The notes under the pieces were generated by a model. It did not search any database and was not told the DNA's origin. It saw only the letters and a list, made by a program, of their open reading frames with translations. Shown here in pieces: positions 41,930-47,552 of a stretch of DNA of 64,000 bases (the stretch's first letter is position 1; the number at the start of each line of letters is the position of its first letter). Source of the DNA: Actinacidiphila epipremni (GTDB lineage: Bacteria; Actinomycetota; Actinomycetes; Streptomycetales; Streptomycetaceae); the NCBI RefSeq assembly GCF_012034175.1, contig NZ_JAATEJ010000023.1, forward strand, positions 62,001-126,000, in the 5' to 3' direction. The position numbers and the translations under genes were made by a program.

Positions 41930-42256
41930 TCAGCCGTTGAAGCCCGAGTCGTCCGAGGGCAGATCCAGATCCGCCTTGTTCAGCTCCTCGATATTCACGT
42001 CCTTGAACGTGAGCACCCGCACCTGCTTGACGAAGCGCGCCGGCCGGTACATGTCCCAGACCCATGCGTCGGCCATCGAGACCTCGAAGAACACCTCGCC
42101 CTGGACCGAGTGCACCTGCATCTCGTAGTCGTTGGTGAGGTAGAAACGCCGCTCGGTCTCGATCACGTACTTGAACAGCCCGACGACGTCGCGGTACTCC
42201 CTGTAGAGCTTCAGCTCCATCTCGGTCTCGTACTTCTCGAGGTCCTCGGCGCTCAT
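41930..42256 (-). CDS. DUF2469 family protein
   Basis: A 108-residue, strongly acidic, soluble protein found across Actinobacteria (MSAEDLEKYETEMELKLYRE; FEVSMADAWVWDMYRPARFV). It has no known function. The gene is always small and well conserved, which suggests a core role. It lies 88 nt downstream of sipZ and may be in the same transcription unit. Confidence 0.9.
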   Translation of the reverse strand: MSAEDLEKYETEMELKLYREYRDVVGLFKYVIETERRFYLTNDYEMQVHSVQGEVFFEVSMADAWVWDMYRPARFVKQVRVLTFKDVNIEELNKADLDLPSDDSGFNG

Positions 42257-42344
42257 CGTGTGTTCCCCTTCAGCCGTACGTGACCCCCATTGTGCGTCAC
42301 GCGGTCCGCCCGCACTGCGGAACCGCCCCGCACGCCCACCGTGA

Positions 42345-43142
42345 TCACCGGCGCCGCAGCAGCTTGGCCAGCGGGTCCCAGGCCGCCCCGCCCAGGATCA
42401 GCACCACGCCGGCCAGCGCCGCGACCACCAGCAGGCCCAGCGGCCCCCGTCCGGGGGAACCGCCGCCCGGGATCGCGGCGAAGGCCGAGGTGCGGTGCAG
42501 CAGCCCGATACGGGACGACGGCCAGGCGATACCGTCCACCCGGGCCTTGACGTCGCTCGCCGGGACCGCGCCGCCCTCGGCGTCGGCGAGGTGGACCCGG
42601 GAGTCCTCGGAGATCGCGCGGTTGTCGCCCAGCAGGAAGAGCTTGCCCGCCGGCACCTTCGTGCTGAACCGCTCCGCCGACGCCTGGTCCCCGCCCTGCG
42701 CGGAGGGCGCGCCGCCGTTCAGGTACGTCTCGTCGACCGGGGTGCCGTTCACGGTCAGCCGGCCCTGCGCGTCGCAGCAGGCCACCGTGTCCCCGCCGAC
42801 CCCGACGACCCGCTTGACCAGCGGCGCGTCGCCCCACAGCGGGTCCTTGAAGACCACCACGTCACCGCGGTGCACCTGCGACCCGGACACCTTCTGCGCG
42901 AGCAGCCGGTCGCCCGACTGCACGGTCGGCACCATGGACGTGGTCGGCACGCTGTAGGGGCGGTAGACCAGCGCGCCCCACACGCAGGAGCCGAGGAAGA
43001 GCACGCAGCCGAGAGCGACGGCTATGCCGGACAGCCGGTGCCCGAGCCCGCCGCCACCGGCTCCCGCACCGCGCCGCCCGGCTCCGGCGCCGCTTCCGCT
43101 TCCCGTGGTGCCGGTGGTCGTCGCACCGCTGCTGCTGCTCAT
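42345..43142 (-). CDS. sipZ: Signal peptidase I, fourth of the cluster (SipZ-like)
   Basis: A 265-residue membrane protease removing signal peptides. An N-terminal Gly/Ser-rich part is followed by the membrane helix (about residues 35-60), the catalytic Ser in PTTSMVPT, the Lys in LVKRVVGVGGD and box E in GDNRAISEDSR. A second helix near the C-terminus (GLLVVAALAGVVLILGG) ends in LLRRR. It is the last of four paralogues in tandem; it is the most divergent. Confidence 0.88.
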   Translation of the reverse strand: MSSSSGATTTGTTGSGSGAGAGRRGAGAGGGGLGHRLSGIAVALGCVLFLGSCVWGALVYRPYSVPTTSMVPTVQSGDRLLAQKVSGSQVHRGDVVVFKDPLWGDAPLVKRVVGVGGDTVACCDAQGRLTVNGTPVDETYLNGGAPSAQGGDQASAERFSTKVPAGKLFLLGDNRAISEDSRVHLADAEGGAVPASDVKARVDGIAWPSSRIGLLHRTSAFAAIPGGGSPGRGPLGLLVVAALAGVVLILGGAAWDPLAKLLRRR

Positions 43143-43176
43143 GGACCGGAACCCTACCGGGCGGTACGCGCGCCGG

Positions 43177-44415
43177 TCAGCCCTGCTCCGCGCTCTCCCG
43201 GCCGGGCCCGCCCCGCACCGGCGGCTCGGTGGGCACGGCGGAGGCCGCCCGCTCCACCGCGGCCGTCAGCAGCCTGCGCCGGCGCCACATCACCAGGGGC
43301 AGCGCGCCCGCGAACCCGGCCGCGACCGGCGCCGCCGCACCGGCGGCGTTGATGCCGGGCTGCGAGAACGTTCCCGGGATGGACAGCACGTCCCAGCGGT
43401 TCACCGGCCAGGCCACCACGATGGCGCGCCCCACCACGTCACCGTCGGACACGGTGCCGCCGCCGGGCAGCGTCATGTGGAAGCGCGAGTCCAGCGAGTC
43501 CTGCCGGTGGTCGCCCATGACCCAGATGCGGCCCTTGGGCACATGCACGGTGAACGGCACCTCGGGGGTGCAGGGCGTATTGCCGGGATAGACGTACGGC
43601 TCGTCGAGCGGCTTGCCGTTGACCATCACCGGGCCGGTGCCCTTGCACGACACCGTGTCGCCGCCCACCCCGATGACCCGCTTGATCAGGTCCTTCTCAT
43701 CGGCCGAGGGCATCAGGCCGATAAAGCTCAGGCCCTTCTGCAGCCCCTTGACCAGCACATTGTTGCTCGCCGGCGGGTTCTCGGGCAGCCAGCCGCCCGG
43801 GTCGTGGAAGACCACCACCTCGCCGCGGGACGGCTCGGAGCCGAACCAGGGCGTGAGCTTGTCGACCAGCACCCGGTCGCCCTTGAGCAGGGTGTTGTTC
43901 ATCGAGTCCGAGGGGATGGAGAACGCCTGGACCAGGAAGGTCTTGATCAGCAGCGCCAGCACCAGCGCGATGCCGACCAGCAGCGGCAGCTCCTTCCAGA
44001 ACGACCGCGGCTTGCCCCGGCCGCCGTGGCCGGGCCGCTCGTCGGCGTCCTCCTCGTCGTCGGCCGGGTCAGGACCGGCGGGGCCCACCGGGCCCACCGG
44101 GTCGCCGGGGGCGCCACCGGCCATCGCCGGGATGCCGCCCGCCACGGGCACCGTGCCGGGCGCGACGCCCGGGTGCCCCGGTGCCGTGCCCTGCTCGCCC
44201 GCCGCCGGCCCGCCATGACCGTCTGCGTACGGCGGCAGCCCGGGCCCGTCCGCGTAGGGCTGCGTCACGCCGGGGCCCTCCGCGTACGGCGGCGGCGCCG
44301 GGCTCCGTCCGGGGACCGCGGCATCTGCCGCCGAGGCATCGGTCTGGGGCACCTCGGCATTCCGCTTCTCGGGCTCGCCGGGTCCAGATCGTGCGCCGAC
44401 CACCAGGTCCCCCAC
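43177..44415 (-). CDS. sipY: Signal peptidase I, third of the cluster (SipY-like)
   Basis: A 412-residue protease with a long disordered cytoplasmic start (about 135 residues with YADGPG-type repeats), a membrane helix (LPLLVGIALVLALLIKTFLV), Ser in PSDSMNNT, Lys in LIKRVIGVGGD and box E GDHRQDSLDSRFH. A C-terminal hydrophobic helix precedes RRRRLL. GTG 44415 has GAGGAG 5 nt upstream and fits better than GTG 44421. The first 347 nt overlap the open sipX frame. Confidence 0.88.
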   Translation of the reverse strand: MGDLVVGARSGPGEPEKRNAEVPQTDASAADAAVPGRSPAPPPYAEGPGVTQPYADGPGLPPYADGHGGPAAGEQGTAPGHPGVAPGTVPVAGGIPAMAGGAPGDPVGPVGPAGPDPADDEEDADERPGHGGRGKPRSFWKELPLLVGIALVLALLIKTFLVQAFSIPSDSMNNTLLKGDRVLVDKLTPWFGSEPSRGEVVVFHDPGGWLPENPPASNNVLVKGLQKGLSFIGLMPSADEKDLIKRVIGVGGDTVSCKGTGPVMVNGKPLDEPYVYPGNTPCTPEVPFTVHVPKGRIWVMGDHRQDSLDSRFHMTLPGGGTVSDGDVVGRAIVVAWPVNRWDVLSIPGTFSQPGINAAGAAAPVAAGFAGALPLVMWRRRRLLTAAVERAASAVPTEPPVRGGPGRESAEQG

Positions 44416-45406
44416 ATCCACTCCTCACTTCGGACCGCCGTCTGCCACGCCATCGGCGCAGGCCTGCCACACCCATAACGAGCGAGAGTTCCGCGGGGGT
44501 CGTGGGCCGGTCCGTCCTTTGACCGTTCTTGGCCGAGCCCACACTAGTCGGCGTCGCTGTGTCCGCCGCTGCGGCGGACCGCGGATCCGCCACGCCGGCG
44601 AAGGTCGCCGGTTCCTTGAGCCGCTGCCAGTGACCGAGCGGCCAGCCGATGACGAAAGCCCGTCCGACCACCAGGCTTTCCGGGATGGTGCCGCCGCCCG
44701 GCTTGTCGGTGTGGTACCGCGAGTCCGCGGAATCCGAGCGGTGGTCGCCCATCACCCACAGCCGGCCGGGCGGCACGTGCTCGGTGAATTTCATCATTGA
44801 GGGTGGATTCCCGGGGTACAGATAGGGCTCGTCCAGCGGCGTGCCGTTGACGAGGATCCGCCCCTGGGCGTCGCAGCACTGCACCGTGTCGCCGCCGACC
44901 GCGATCACCCGCTTGATCAGGTCCTGCTCGCTGCTGGCCGGCAGCAGCCCGATGAAGGTGAAGAACTGCTTGACCTGCTTGACGACGACCGGGTCCTTCT
45001 TGGGCGGCGGCTCGCCCTGCAGCCAGCCACCGGGGTCCTTGAAGACGACGACGTCGCCGCGGTGCGGTTCGGCGCCGAACCACGGGGTGAGCTTGTCCAC
45101 CAGCACCCGGTCGCCGATCTTGATGGTCTGCTCCATCGATCCGGACGGGATCACGAACGCCTGCACCAGGAACGTCTTGAGCACCAGGGCGATCAGCAGC
45201 GCCACCATGACCAGCAGCGGCACCTCCCTGGCCAGCGAGCGCCGCCGTCTGCGGCGGACCTTGCGGGCGAGCCGGCGCCGCTCCACCCGGGTGTTGCCGG
45301 TCAGCCGCGGGGTCTCGCCGAGATCGGCGCCGCCCTGCTCGCCGGCCGGCTCGACGCCGACGACACCGCCGAACAGCGTCCTGCGGGCCCTGCCGCGGTT
45401 ACCCAT
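44069..45406 (-). CDS. sipX: Signal peptidase I, second of the cluster (SipX-like), long 3' overlap with sipY
   Basis: The protease core covers residues 1 to about 300: membrane helix VPLLVMVALLIALVLKTFLV, Ser in PSGSMEQT, Lys in LIKRVIAVGGD, box E GDHRSDSADSRYH. Type I enzymes normally end soon after this. Here the frame continues without stop to 44069, giving 445 residues; the last 115 are Arg/Gly-rich and overlap sipY in a different frame. A frameshift or an earlier true stop lost to sequencing is possible. The ATG at 45406 overlaps the sipW stop by 8 bp. Confidence 0.82.
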   Translation of the reverse strand: MGNRGRARRTLFGGVVGVEPAGEQGGADLGETPRLTGNTRVERRRLARKVRRRRRRSLAREVPLLVMVALLIALVLKTFLVQAFVIPSGSMEQTIKIGDRVLVDKLTPWFGAEPHRGDVVVFKDPGGWLQGEPPPKKDPVVVKQVKQFFTFIGLLPASSEQDLIKRVIAVGGDTVQCCDAQGRILVNGTPLDEPYLYPGNPPSMMKFTEHVPPGRLWVMGDHRSDSADSRYHTDKPGGGTIPESLVVGRAFVIGWPLGHWQRLKEPATFAGVADPRSAAAADTATPTSVGSAKNGQRTDRPTTPAELSLVMGVAGLRRWRGRRRSEVRSGCGGPGGRRTIWTRRAREAECRGAPDRCLGGRCRGPRTEPGAAAVRGGPRRDAALRGRARAAAVRRRSWRAGGGRAGHGTGAPGRRARHGARGGRHPGDGRWRPRRPGGPGGPRRS

Positions 45407-46145
45407 GCGCGCCGGCCGGGGCGGGCACGTCGGCGAAGGCGGCCGGGCGGCGCAGCCGGGTCCAGCGGCCGACCGGCCAGGCGACCGCGTCGGCACGGCC
45501 GATCACCCGGTCGACGGGCACGTTGCCGCCGCCGGGGTCGCCGAGGTGGTCGCGTGAGTCACGCGAGTCGGCACGGTGATCGCCCATCACCCACAGCTTT
45601 CCGTCCGGCACCACGATGTCGAACCGTACCTGGGACGGTGTGTCCCCGGGATAAAGGTAGGTCTCGTCCAGCGGGTGGCCGTTGACCATCAGCCGCCCGC
45701 GGGCGTCGCAACAGGTGACGCGGTCGCCGCCGACGCCGATGACGCGCTTGACGAAGTCGGTGCCGCTCTGCTGCGTGAAGGAGCCCTCGCCGTCGAAGAC
45801 GATCACGTCCCCGCGCCGCGGTGTGCCGCCGAAGCGGTAGGCGAGCTTGTCGACCAGGACCCGGTCGCCGACCCGCAGCGTGCCCTCCATCGACCGGCTC
45901 GGCACCTGGTAGGGCCGCGCCACGAAGGTACTGACCAGCAGCAGCGCGGCCACCGCGGCGGCCACCAGCAGGATCGTGCGCCGCCACTCGGCCCACACGA
46001 CGGCCGCGGTGTCCGCGACCCGCCCGCGCAGCACGGCCGACCGCGACCGCACAGCGGAACGCGACCGCTCCTCCGGCCGCGCCTGCTCGGCTGCGGTGTC
46101 GGGGGAACGGTCGCGTTCCGGTACGGCTGCTGCTTCGGTGTCCAT
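45399..46145 (-). CDS. sipW: Signal peptidase I, first of the cluster (SipW-like)
   Basis: A 248-residue protease with one N-terminal membrane helix (TILLVAAAVAALLLVSTFVA), Ser in PSRSMEGT, Lys in FVKRVIGVGGD and box E GDHRADSRDSRDH. It lacks the C-terminal helix of its paralogues. It follows rplS by about 100 nt beyond a hairpin, so the cluster may have its own promoter. The stop overlaps the sipX start. Confidence 0.9.
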   Translation of the reverse strand: MDTEAAAVPERDRSPDTAAEQARPEERSRSAVRSRSAVLRGRVADTAAVVWAEWRRTILLVAAAVAALLLVSTFVARPYQVPSRSMEGTLRVGDRVLVDKLAYRFGGTPRRGDVIVFDGEGSFTQQSGTDFVKRVIGVGGDRVTCCDARGRLMVNGHPLDETYLYPGDTPSQVRFDIVVPDGKLWVMGDHRADSRDSRDHLGDPGGGNVPVDRVIGRADAVAWPVGRWTRLRRPAAFADVPAPAGAHG

Positions 46146-46185
46146 CGGGGCCAGAGCTTATCCGGCCGCTGCGGACCGCCCGCGA

Positions 46186-46209
46186 CGAGCGCCCCGCGAG
46201 AGGCGCTCG
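46186..46209 (-). terminator. Hairpin between rplS and sipW
   Basis: CGAGCGCC (46186-46193) pairs perfectly with GGCGCTCG (46202-46209) across an 8-nt loop, 38 nt past the rplS stop. Confidence 0.5.
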
Positions 46210-46246
46210 CCACGGGCCCGGCGCCGGGAGTCCTCGCGGGAAGCGC

Positions 46247-46597
46247 TCAGTTGTCGCGCTTCTCCTTGATCTTCGCGGCCTTGCCGCGCAGCTCGCGCAG
46301 GTAGTAGAGCTTGGCGCGGCGCACGTCGCCGCGGGTGACGACCTCGATCTTCTCCACGATCGGGGTGTGCACCGGGAAGGTCCGCTCGACACCGACGGAG
46401 AAGCTCACCTTGCGGACCGTGAAGGTCTCGCTGATGCCCGCGCCCTGGCGGCGGATGACGACGCCCTTGAACTGCTGCACACGGGAGCGGTTGCCCTCGA
46501 TGACGCGCACGTGGACGTTGACGGTGTCGCCGGGGCGGAAGGCCGGGACGTCGGTGCGCAGCGACGCGCTGTTGACGCTCTCGATGAGGTTGGTCAT
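46247..46597 (-). CDS. rplS: 50S ribosomal protein L19
   Basis: The usual 116 residues ([56 protein letters not shown]). It sits 133 nt after trmD, as in the classic rpsP-rimM-trmD-rplS operon. Confidence 0.97.
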
Positions 46598-46730
46598 ATC
46601 GGTGTCTGCTTCCTCGCCGATGCCACAGGTCATCGACGGAACATGAGGTCGGGTGTCAGGGTGCGCGGCCGGGGGCGGCGGGCGTCGTTCCCCCTGTGGC
46701 AGGGGCGCGGGCCGGACCGGCAGCAGCCGC

Positions 46731-47552
46731 TCATTCTTCCATGACGTGGGGGCTCGGCCCAAATCGCCCGTCCGGGCCCGGCATCCAGCCCAGGATGCTG
46801 AGCATCTCCCGGTCGCGCTTGTCGAAGGCGGCGGGGTCGCAGCGCCGGATCAGGTCGGGGCGGTGGGCGACGGTACGGCGCAGGGCCTCGTCGCGGCGCC
46901 AGCGGGCGATCTTCCCGTGGTGGCCGCTGAGCAGCACCTCGGGGATGCCACGGCCGCGCCAGGTGGGCGGCTTGGTGTAGACCGGGCCTTCCAGCAGGTC
47001 GGCCATCGCGCCGGGTGCGAAGGAGTCGTCGCGGTAGGAGGCGGCGTTGCCGAGGACGCCGGGCAGCAGCCGGGCGACGGCCTCGGTGACGACCAGGACC
47101 GCGGCCTCGCCGCCGGCCAGCACGTAGTCGCCGATGGAGACCTCGTAGACCGGCAGCCGGGTGCGGTACTCGTCGGTGACGCGGGTGTCGATGCCCTCGT
47201 AGCGGGCGGGCGCGAAGACCAGCCAGGGCCGCTCGGCGAGTTCACCGGCGAGCTGCTGGGTGAAGGGCCGCCCGCTGGGGGTGGGGACGACGAGCGCGGG
47301 CCGGCCGGCGCCGGCCTCGTAGCCGTCGGCGAGGGTGTCGTCGAGGGCCTCGCCCCAGGGCCCGGTCATCATGACCATGCCGGGGCCGCCGCCGTACGGG
47401 GTGTCGTCGACGGTGTTGTGCCGGTCGTGGGCCCAGTCGCGCAGGTCGTGGACGCGCACGTCGAGCCGGCCGGCCGCGCGGGCCTTGCCGACCAGCGAGA
47501 CGTTCAGCGGCTCCAGGTACTCGGGGAAGATCGTGACGACGTCGATCCGCAT
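46731..47552 (-). CDS. trmD: tRNA (guanine-N1)-methyltransferase
   Basis: A 273-residue SPOUT enzyme that methylates G37 of tRNAs, preventing frameshifts. The knot motifs are visible: [24 protein letters not shown] and [15 protein letters not shown]. The ATG at 47552 comes one base after the rimM stop. The C-terminal extension to HVMEE is normal for Streptomyces. Confidence 0.96.

Follow-up and report, generated by a model that had tools for sequence, protein, structure and literature searches.

The window analyzed here, a 64,000-nucleotide stretch of Actinacidiphila epipremni DNA, carries the genes rplS, sipW, sipX, sipY, and sipZ in that order. SipW, SipX, SipY, and SipZ all matched PF10502 in a profile search, at 125–141 bits against a cut-off of 22.9. 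Parro and co-workers reportedly described, in 1999, a four-gene sip cluster, sipW-X-Y-Z, in Streptomyces lividans, and the sip genes of the window stand in the same order. The two genes that concern us and the stretch that they share are as follows.

44069–45406, minus strand: sipX, type I signal peptidase (from the list of open reading frames; PF10502, E value 2.1e-40, residues 92–285 of the longest frame)
43177–44415, minus strand: sipY, type I signal peptidase (from the same list; PF10502, E value 2.8e-39; relatives keep the N-terminal VGDLxVGARSG)
44069–44415, minus strand: overlap of the sipX frame with sipY, an unselected read-through as judged from the spread of stops, four-fold divergence, and codon redraws

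The longest sipX frame extends from 45496 to 44069 on the minus strand with GTG 45496 as its listed start, and ATG 45406 is the likelier one. The stop of sipW overlaps this ATG in ATGGGTAA (45399–45406, minus strand), a junction of the typical coupled type that the sipX–sipY junction does not resemble. For sipY, the listed start is GTG 44421; GTG 44415 is likely the better choice by its placement behind the Shine-Dalgarno sequence GAGGAG. In S. lividans, a secretion host, SipY is the major signal peptidase according to one article (PMC6022935), and another (PMC6344877) lists SCO5596–SCO5599 as signal peptidases of the HrdB regulon.

The overlap of sipX and sipY

The sipX frame remains open for 347 nt from the sipY start at GTG 44415 to 44069. 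A preliminary description of this DNA had put the overlap at about 350 nt without a stop and the end of the SipX protease core near residue 300, and both statements agree with our measurements, the S26 domain ending at residue 285 of a 475-residue frame. Also as described there, the tail that follows the domain is rich in Arg and Gly, and 115 codons are open past the sipY start. An extended tail, a lost stop, and a frameshift near the end of sipX had been offered as explanations. A drifting stop fits best among them, and nothing points to a sequencing frameshift. The extended tail, read as a functional extension of SipX, could appeal to the open frame of the window and to a 113-nt overlap that recurs in one large Streptomyces group, but the results below make it highly improbable.

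Each sipX codon of the overlap takes its first base from the third position of one sipY codon and its other two from the beginning of the next. A stop in the sipX frame requires a sipY codon ending in T, which is rare in such DNA, and an open frame is therefore expected. Codons were redrawn 20,000 times for an unchanged SipY protein at the frequencies with which sip genes of the genus use them, and 61% of the draws yielded an overlap of at least 347 nt, in line with the earlier remark that open frames arise easily.

Junctions were collected from named contigs, 35 genomes of the window's genus, 394 of its family, 150 Streptomyces genomes, and extra regions. Loci L002–L007, which are slices of or matches around the window's own locus, and L044 were dropped, and 171 distinct junctions were counted without three odd loci (L043, L148, and L162). 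In the preliminary description, stops at varied places before sipY in relatives, with no selection on the tail frame, were to count against its reading. Stops do occur at many places, yet 154 of the 171 junctions have the sipX stop after the sipY start and 17 before it, the latter including deliberately gathered clades that enrich the sample, so that 17/171 is not a frequency. The median positive overlap was 113 nt, and five of the 171 junctions reached at least 347 nt.

Stops in the sipX frame were then counted along the sipY linker, leaving aside five loci whose linker end was not located (L039, L042, L114, L182, and L209). They made up 151 of 4755 codons up to the first stop (0.032) and 71 of 6527 codons past it (0.011); although shared ancestry of stops inflates the former rate, a higher rate before than after the first stop is the reverse of what selection for openness would give and argues against it. 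Over 3271 pairs, the four-fold divergence of sipY was 0.194 in the first 14 codons and 0.413 in the overlap beyond codon 14, compared with 0.339 in the protease core and 0.485 in the linker past the sipX stop. The purifying selection that had been suggested as a check on the tail was therefore not clearly present at the sipY four-fold sites of the overlap beyond codon 14. The AlphaFold2 model of SipX, based on 12 sequences, was poor (mean pLDDT 43.7, with residues 253–445 all below 50) and says nothing firm on the tail. A functional sipX tail was ruled out by the chance expectation and the synonymous rates; the tail is drift, and the long overlap is ordinary. Conservation, which the preliminary description had named as the arbiter, is not evident in the tail; it is present, at the nucleotide level, just ahead of the overlap and where sipY begins.

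A constrained element at the 3' end of sipX

The conserved stretch upstream of the overlap has the following core.

44459–44506, minus strand: near-invariant element core, recognized by four-fold divergence and near-fixed codons; in frame it reads as SipX ...TPAELSLVMGVAGL

The core measures about 48 nt, at offsets −15 to +32 from a GAA codon at 44491. Across 924 pairs from 142 sequences, four-fold divergence dropped from 0.339 in the sipX core and 0.325 in the spacer to 0.024 in the element, and between the element and the sipY start it was 0.209. The encoded peptide, LPTPAELPLVMGVVGL, is almost constant across relatives, and its codons are nearly fixed: GTT and GAA occurred in all 111 distinct copies, CCT in 105, and GGA in 104, these copies having been chosen by the peptide pattern so that copies without the peptide are uncounted. 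The same codons account in sipX cores for 1.7% of Val (GTT), 14% of Glu (GAA), 2.4% of Pro (CCT), and 6.8% of Gly (GGA). The element pattern is single-copy with up to two mismatches across the genome and up to three within the window; variant cores at L010, L045, L055, L063, L149, and L183 were missed by it. These results demonstrate constraint on the element at the nucleotide level.

The in-frame occurrence of the peptide in nearly all sipX genes examined, other genera included, would also be expected if PTPAELPLVMGVVGL were a functional C-terminal peptide of SipX, acting either as a membrane anchor or by arresting the ribosome ahead of sipY. We consider this improbable. The synonymous sites are frozen as much as the others, whereas a leader or arrest peptide is recognized by conservation of the encoded peptide. 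We also observed INDEPENDENCE from the peptide, in that the element DNA persists where the peptide is not encoded. In 11 Streptomyces loci (L135–L145), sipX ends at a TAG upstream of the element, and the element retains 97.3% mean pairwise identity. The corresponding values are 84.3% for the coding part of sipX, 74.1% immediately ahead of the TAG, 64.5% for the sipY linker, and 44.4% from hairpin 2 (described below) to the Shine-Dalgarno sequence. L134 is a further and different case of an element kept without the peptide, and 12 rows of the Streptomyces junction listing (150 genomes) have a TAG before the element. A conserved SipX C-terminal peptide was dropped as an explanation on the grounds of the frozen synonymous sites and the DNA kept in this early-stop clade. 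The sipX TAG of the clade L134–L145 is located about 100 nt upstream of sipY and is immediately preceded by an Arg-rich tail.

The element is associated with SipY-type genes and stands at a fixed distance from the sipY start. The GAA codon and the sipY GTG are 76 nt apart in 173 of 200 loci (duplicates included). Diverged copies precede extra SipY-like genes away from sipX in three genomes, namely G076 (L243 and L275), G116 (L244), and G833 (L276); at L243 the element DNA is kept in another reading frame, a second point against the peptide. At L257 and L272 the element is coding in both. A copy between two sipY-like genes in G451 (L279) has 21 mismatches in 48 positions with GGAACTCCCGCTCGTT intact, and in G435 (L278) the element is reduced to the CTCCCGCTCG part and the Shine-Dalgarno region. 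The genes behind the diverged copies are each closer to the SipY than to the SipX of the window. In one case, G439 (L280), which has two copies as the result of a partial duplication, the copy before sipY differs from the consensus at 1 of 48 positions and the copy inside sipX at 8 of 48; the decay of the latter beside an intact copy ahead of sipY likewise speaks against a SipX peptide.

Two of these loci had further features. L279 represents a tandem duplication of sipY in which each copy has its own element, the first copy being partly masked as N. L280 carries a partial duplication between sipX and sipY, with a short frame that is possibly a small secreted protein.

Complementarity of the element to the sipY Shine-Dalgarno sequence

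An alignment of 68 diverse rows (A3, for which L146 was omitted from 69 selected loci) was folded with RNAalifold, and a covariance model (R1) was used for searches. The resulting features are listed below.

44380–44509, minus strand: whole modeled RNA region; sole match of R1 in the genome at E ≤ 10 (E value 1.1e-22)
44485–44489, minus strand: anti-Shine-Dalgarno stretch, ACUCU in the window and ACUCC in the consensus, paired with 44420–44424 as chosen by RNAalifold
44420–44424, minus strand: sipY Shine-Dalgarno sequence GGAGU (A3 columns 154–158; GGAG invariant in 68 rows)
44440–44463, minus strand: hairpin 2, with A3 pairs 53–88, 55–86, and 57–84 changed on both sides and with tree-aware counts
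44386–44410, minus strand: hairpin 3 in the first sipY codons, with weaker support (A3 columns 168–171 with 189–192)

In the consensus fold, the element is joined through its CTCC to the GGAG of the sipY Shine-Dalgarno sequence, and CCC is matched to the GGG at the start codon; hairpin 2 lies between the two arms, and hairpin 3 forms in the first sipY codons. Pairing was possible in 96.2% of 1428 A3 cells, against 40–50% with the partners slid by one to three columns, a control that is biased toward structures derived from that same alignment. Cells changed on both sides numbered 38, compared with 15.7 in shuffles.

The plain mutual-information ranking of columns was dominated by clade signal, and a tree-aware count over 138 sequences was used instead. 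In hairpin 2, three compensatory changes fell on shared branches at pair 29–50 (p < 0.0005) and three at pair 33–46 (p = 0.009), and pair 31–48 stayed paired in 25 of 31 changes. Nearly every row has A or G at position 48, and the codon there is AGG or GGG rather than CGG; among Arg codons in sipX cores, CGG accounts for 44% and AGG for 8%. Pair 34–45 of the same hairpin was paired in only 64 of 142 sequences. For hairpin 3, pair 84–102 had two compensatory changes (p = 0.07), and A3 columns 171–189 comprised 25 C-G, 19 U-G, 13 U-A, 1 A-U, and 10 unpaired rows. These columns hold the third bases of sipY Asp (GAY) and Arg (CGR) codons, which tend to pair across species. This tendency suggests that structure in the RNA extends into the beginning of the sipY coding region.

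The complementarity of the element to the sipY Shine-Dalgarno sequence was almost complete: ACUCC and GGAGU form five of five standard pairs in 133 of 142 distinct sequences and four of five in the other nine, counts to be read knowing that any CUCC pairs with a GGAG. Past a bulged A, the helix is extended by CGCUC and GAGUG, with 75–98% paired per position. This masking helix has no covariation because its near-invariant sequence hardly changes. A competing hairpin, ACUCCC/GGGAGU, which would leave the Shine-Dalgarno sequence free, pairs in 95.3% of cells. The energy ranking of the two forced folds was not uniform over ten sequences. When the window copy is folded without constraints, the structure of lowest energy pairs the element with the Shine-Dalgarno region, masking helix included. 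The window copy breaks pairs 4–20, 29–50, and 84–102; in its hairpin 2, 44462/44441 is a C.A mismatch and the upper stem is weak, and the last pair of its hairpin 3 is C.A.

The main rival to an RNA element is a site acting at the DNA level, that is, an internal promoter or operator for sipY (and sipZ) in the 3' end of sipX. This is conceivable but unlikely in our judgment. The primary sequence of the core (GGAAC...CGCTCGTTATGGG) is more strictly kept than the stems are, its distance from sipY is not constant in genera g3 and g14, and diverged copies precede other SipY-like genes, all of which would suit such a site. However, a scan of 44300–44800 for sigma-70-like matches, which covered that promoter type alone, found no such promoter and no terminator, and GGAAC and CGTTA stand closer together than the two boxes of an ECF-type promoter. 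Substitutions in the 5' arm replace C by T and so retain G.U pairs, and these, the covariation of hairpin 2, and the fixed 76-nt spacing to the start codon point instead to RNA.

The range of the element was narrow. R1 matched 28 of 296 genomes of the class, all 28 within the window's family, and no match was listed outside that family. Of 150 Streptomyces genomes it matched 147, and the other three are assemblies in at least 640 contigs. At E ≤ 1, it matched 28 of 34 hand-picked genomes, with 10 strong and three intermediate matches; eight weak matches also fell at sipX–sipY junctions, and several of the weakest were not close to any sip gene. The core of genera g3 and g14 lies at the end of sipX, the sipY start is approximately 145–365 nt downstream, the anti-Shine-Dalgarno letters vary, and the competing hairpin is imperfect. 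With the sipY start so far downstream in these genera, the fold described here is best for Streptomyces and its nearest relatives. In genera that have a long sipX–sipY intergenic region (L258, L260, L263, L265, and L270–L272), another conserved stretch around GTGATAGAGA was seen between the genes.

A search of Rfam 15 with window positions 42000–47000 and six relatives returned no match at gathering score; a known Rfam family was ruled out, sub-threshold matches alone having been obtained. A literature search found no regulatory element at the sipX–sipY junction, which does not establish its absence from print, and the accessible part of PMC6022935 does not mention a junction element in the sip cluster of S. 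lividans. We consider the junction to hold a new candidate cis-regulatory element that is absent from Rfam and apparently undescribed.

Proposed control of sipY and its likeness to known systems

On balance, we think it probable that a cis-acting RNA element in the 3' end of sipX masks the ribosome-binding site of sipY. The constraint on the nucleotides, its independence of the encoded peptide, the association with SipY-type genes, the fixed spacing, and the complementarity are direct observations; RNA as the acting form, masked initiation, melting by sipX ribosomes, and a trans-acting factor are inferred. In the mRNA, the consensus ACUCC, extended by CGCUC, would pair with the sipY Shine-Dalgarno sequence GAGUGAGGAGU, and this pairing, together with CCC/GGG at the start codon, would mask sipY initiation, with hairpin 2 bridging both masking arms. 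Ribosomes translating sipX would traverse the structure, in most species past the sipY start, and open it, and the output of SipY would thereby be tied to how sipX is translated. A trans-acting factor may instead read the invariant loop GCUCGUUAU and shift pairing to the ACUCCC/GGGAGU hairpin. Translation of sipX in the early-stop clade ends before the element; coupling therefore cannot be its sole use, and a second use is needed.

The element, the Shine-Dalgarno sequence, and the first sipY codons have no stop in the sipX frame, and for this reason the sipX stop would be displaced into the variable N-terminal linker of sipY. It would drift there, the 347-nt overlap being one outcome.

More speculatively, and with considerable doubt on our part, the element may be a Streptomycetaceae-wide RNA switch that sets the SipY level. 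A factor reporting secretion load would read the GCUCGUUAU loop and flip the RNA between its masking and open forms, and SipY-type paralogues would have taken the switch along when copied.

A built-in control element at the junction, if true, would explain how the SipY level is set. In engineering of the sip genes, recoding or trimming of sipX would destroy the element unnoticed. The junction would also be a case in which an apparent conserved protein tail is a nucleic-acid signal.

Masking of a downstream ribosome-binding site with translational coupling is known from E. coli rplJ-rplL and from the lysis gene of phage MS2. As in those systems, an upstream coding region would pair with the Shine-Dalgarno sequence of the next gene, and ribosomes on the upstream gene are proposed here to traverse the pairing. 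Unlike them, the sip element is near-invariant, accompanies SipY-type genes that lack a sipX beside them, and is retained where sipX terminates ahead of it. In its two predicted, mutually exclusive pairings around the Shine-Dalgarno sequence, an invariant loop predicted to be readable by a factor, and its narrow range, it resembles translational riboswitches and ribosomal protein leaders, from which it differs in having no Rfam match or known ligand and in lying mostly inside coding sequence.
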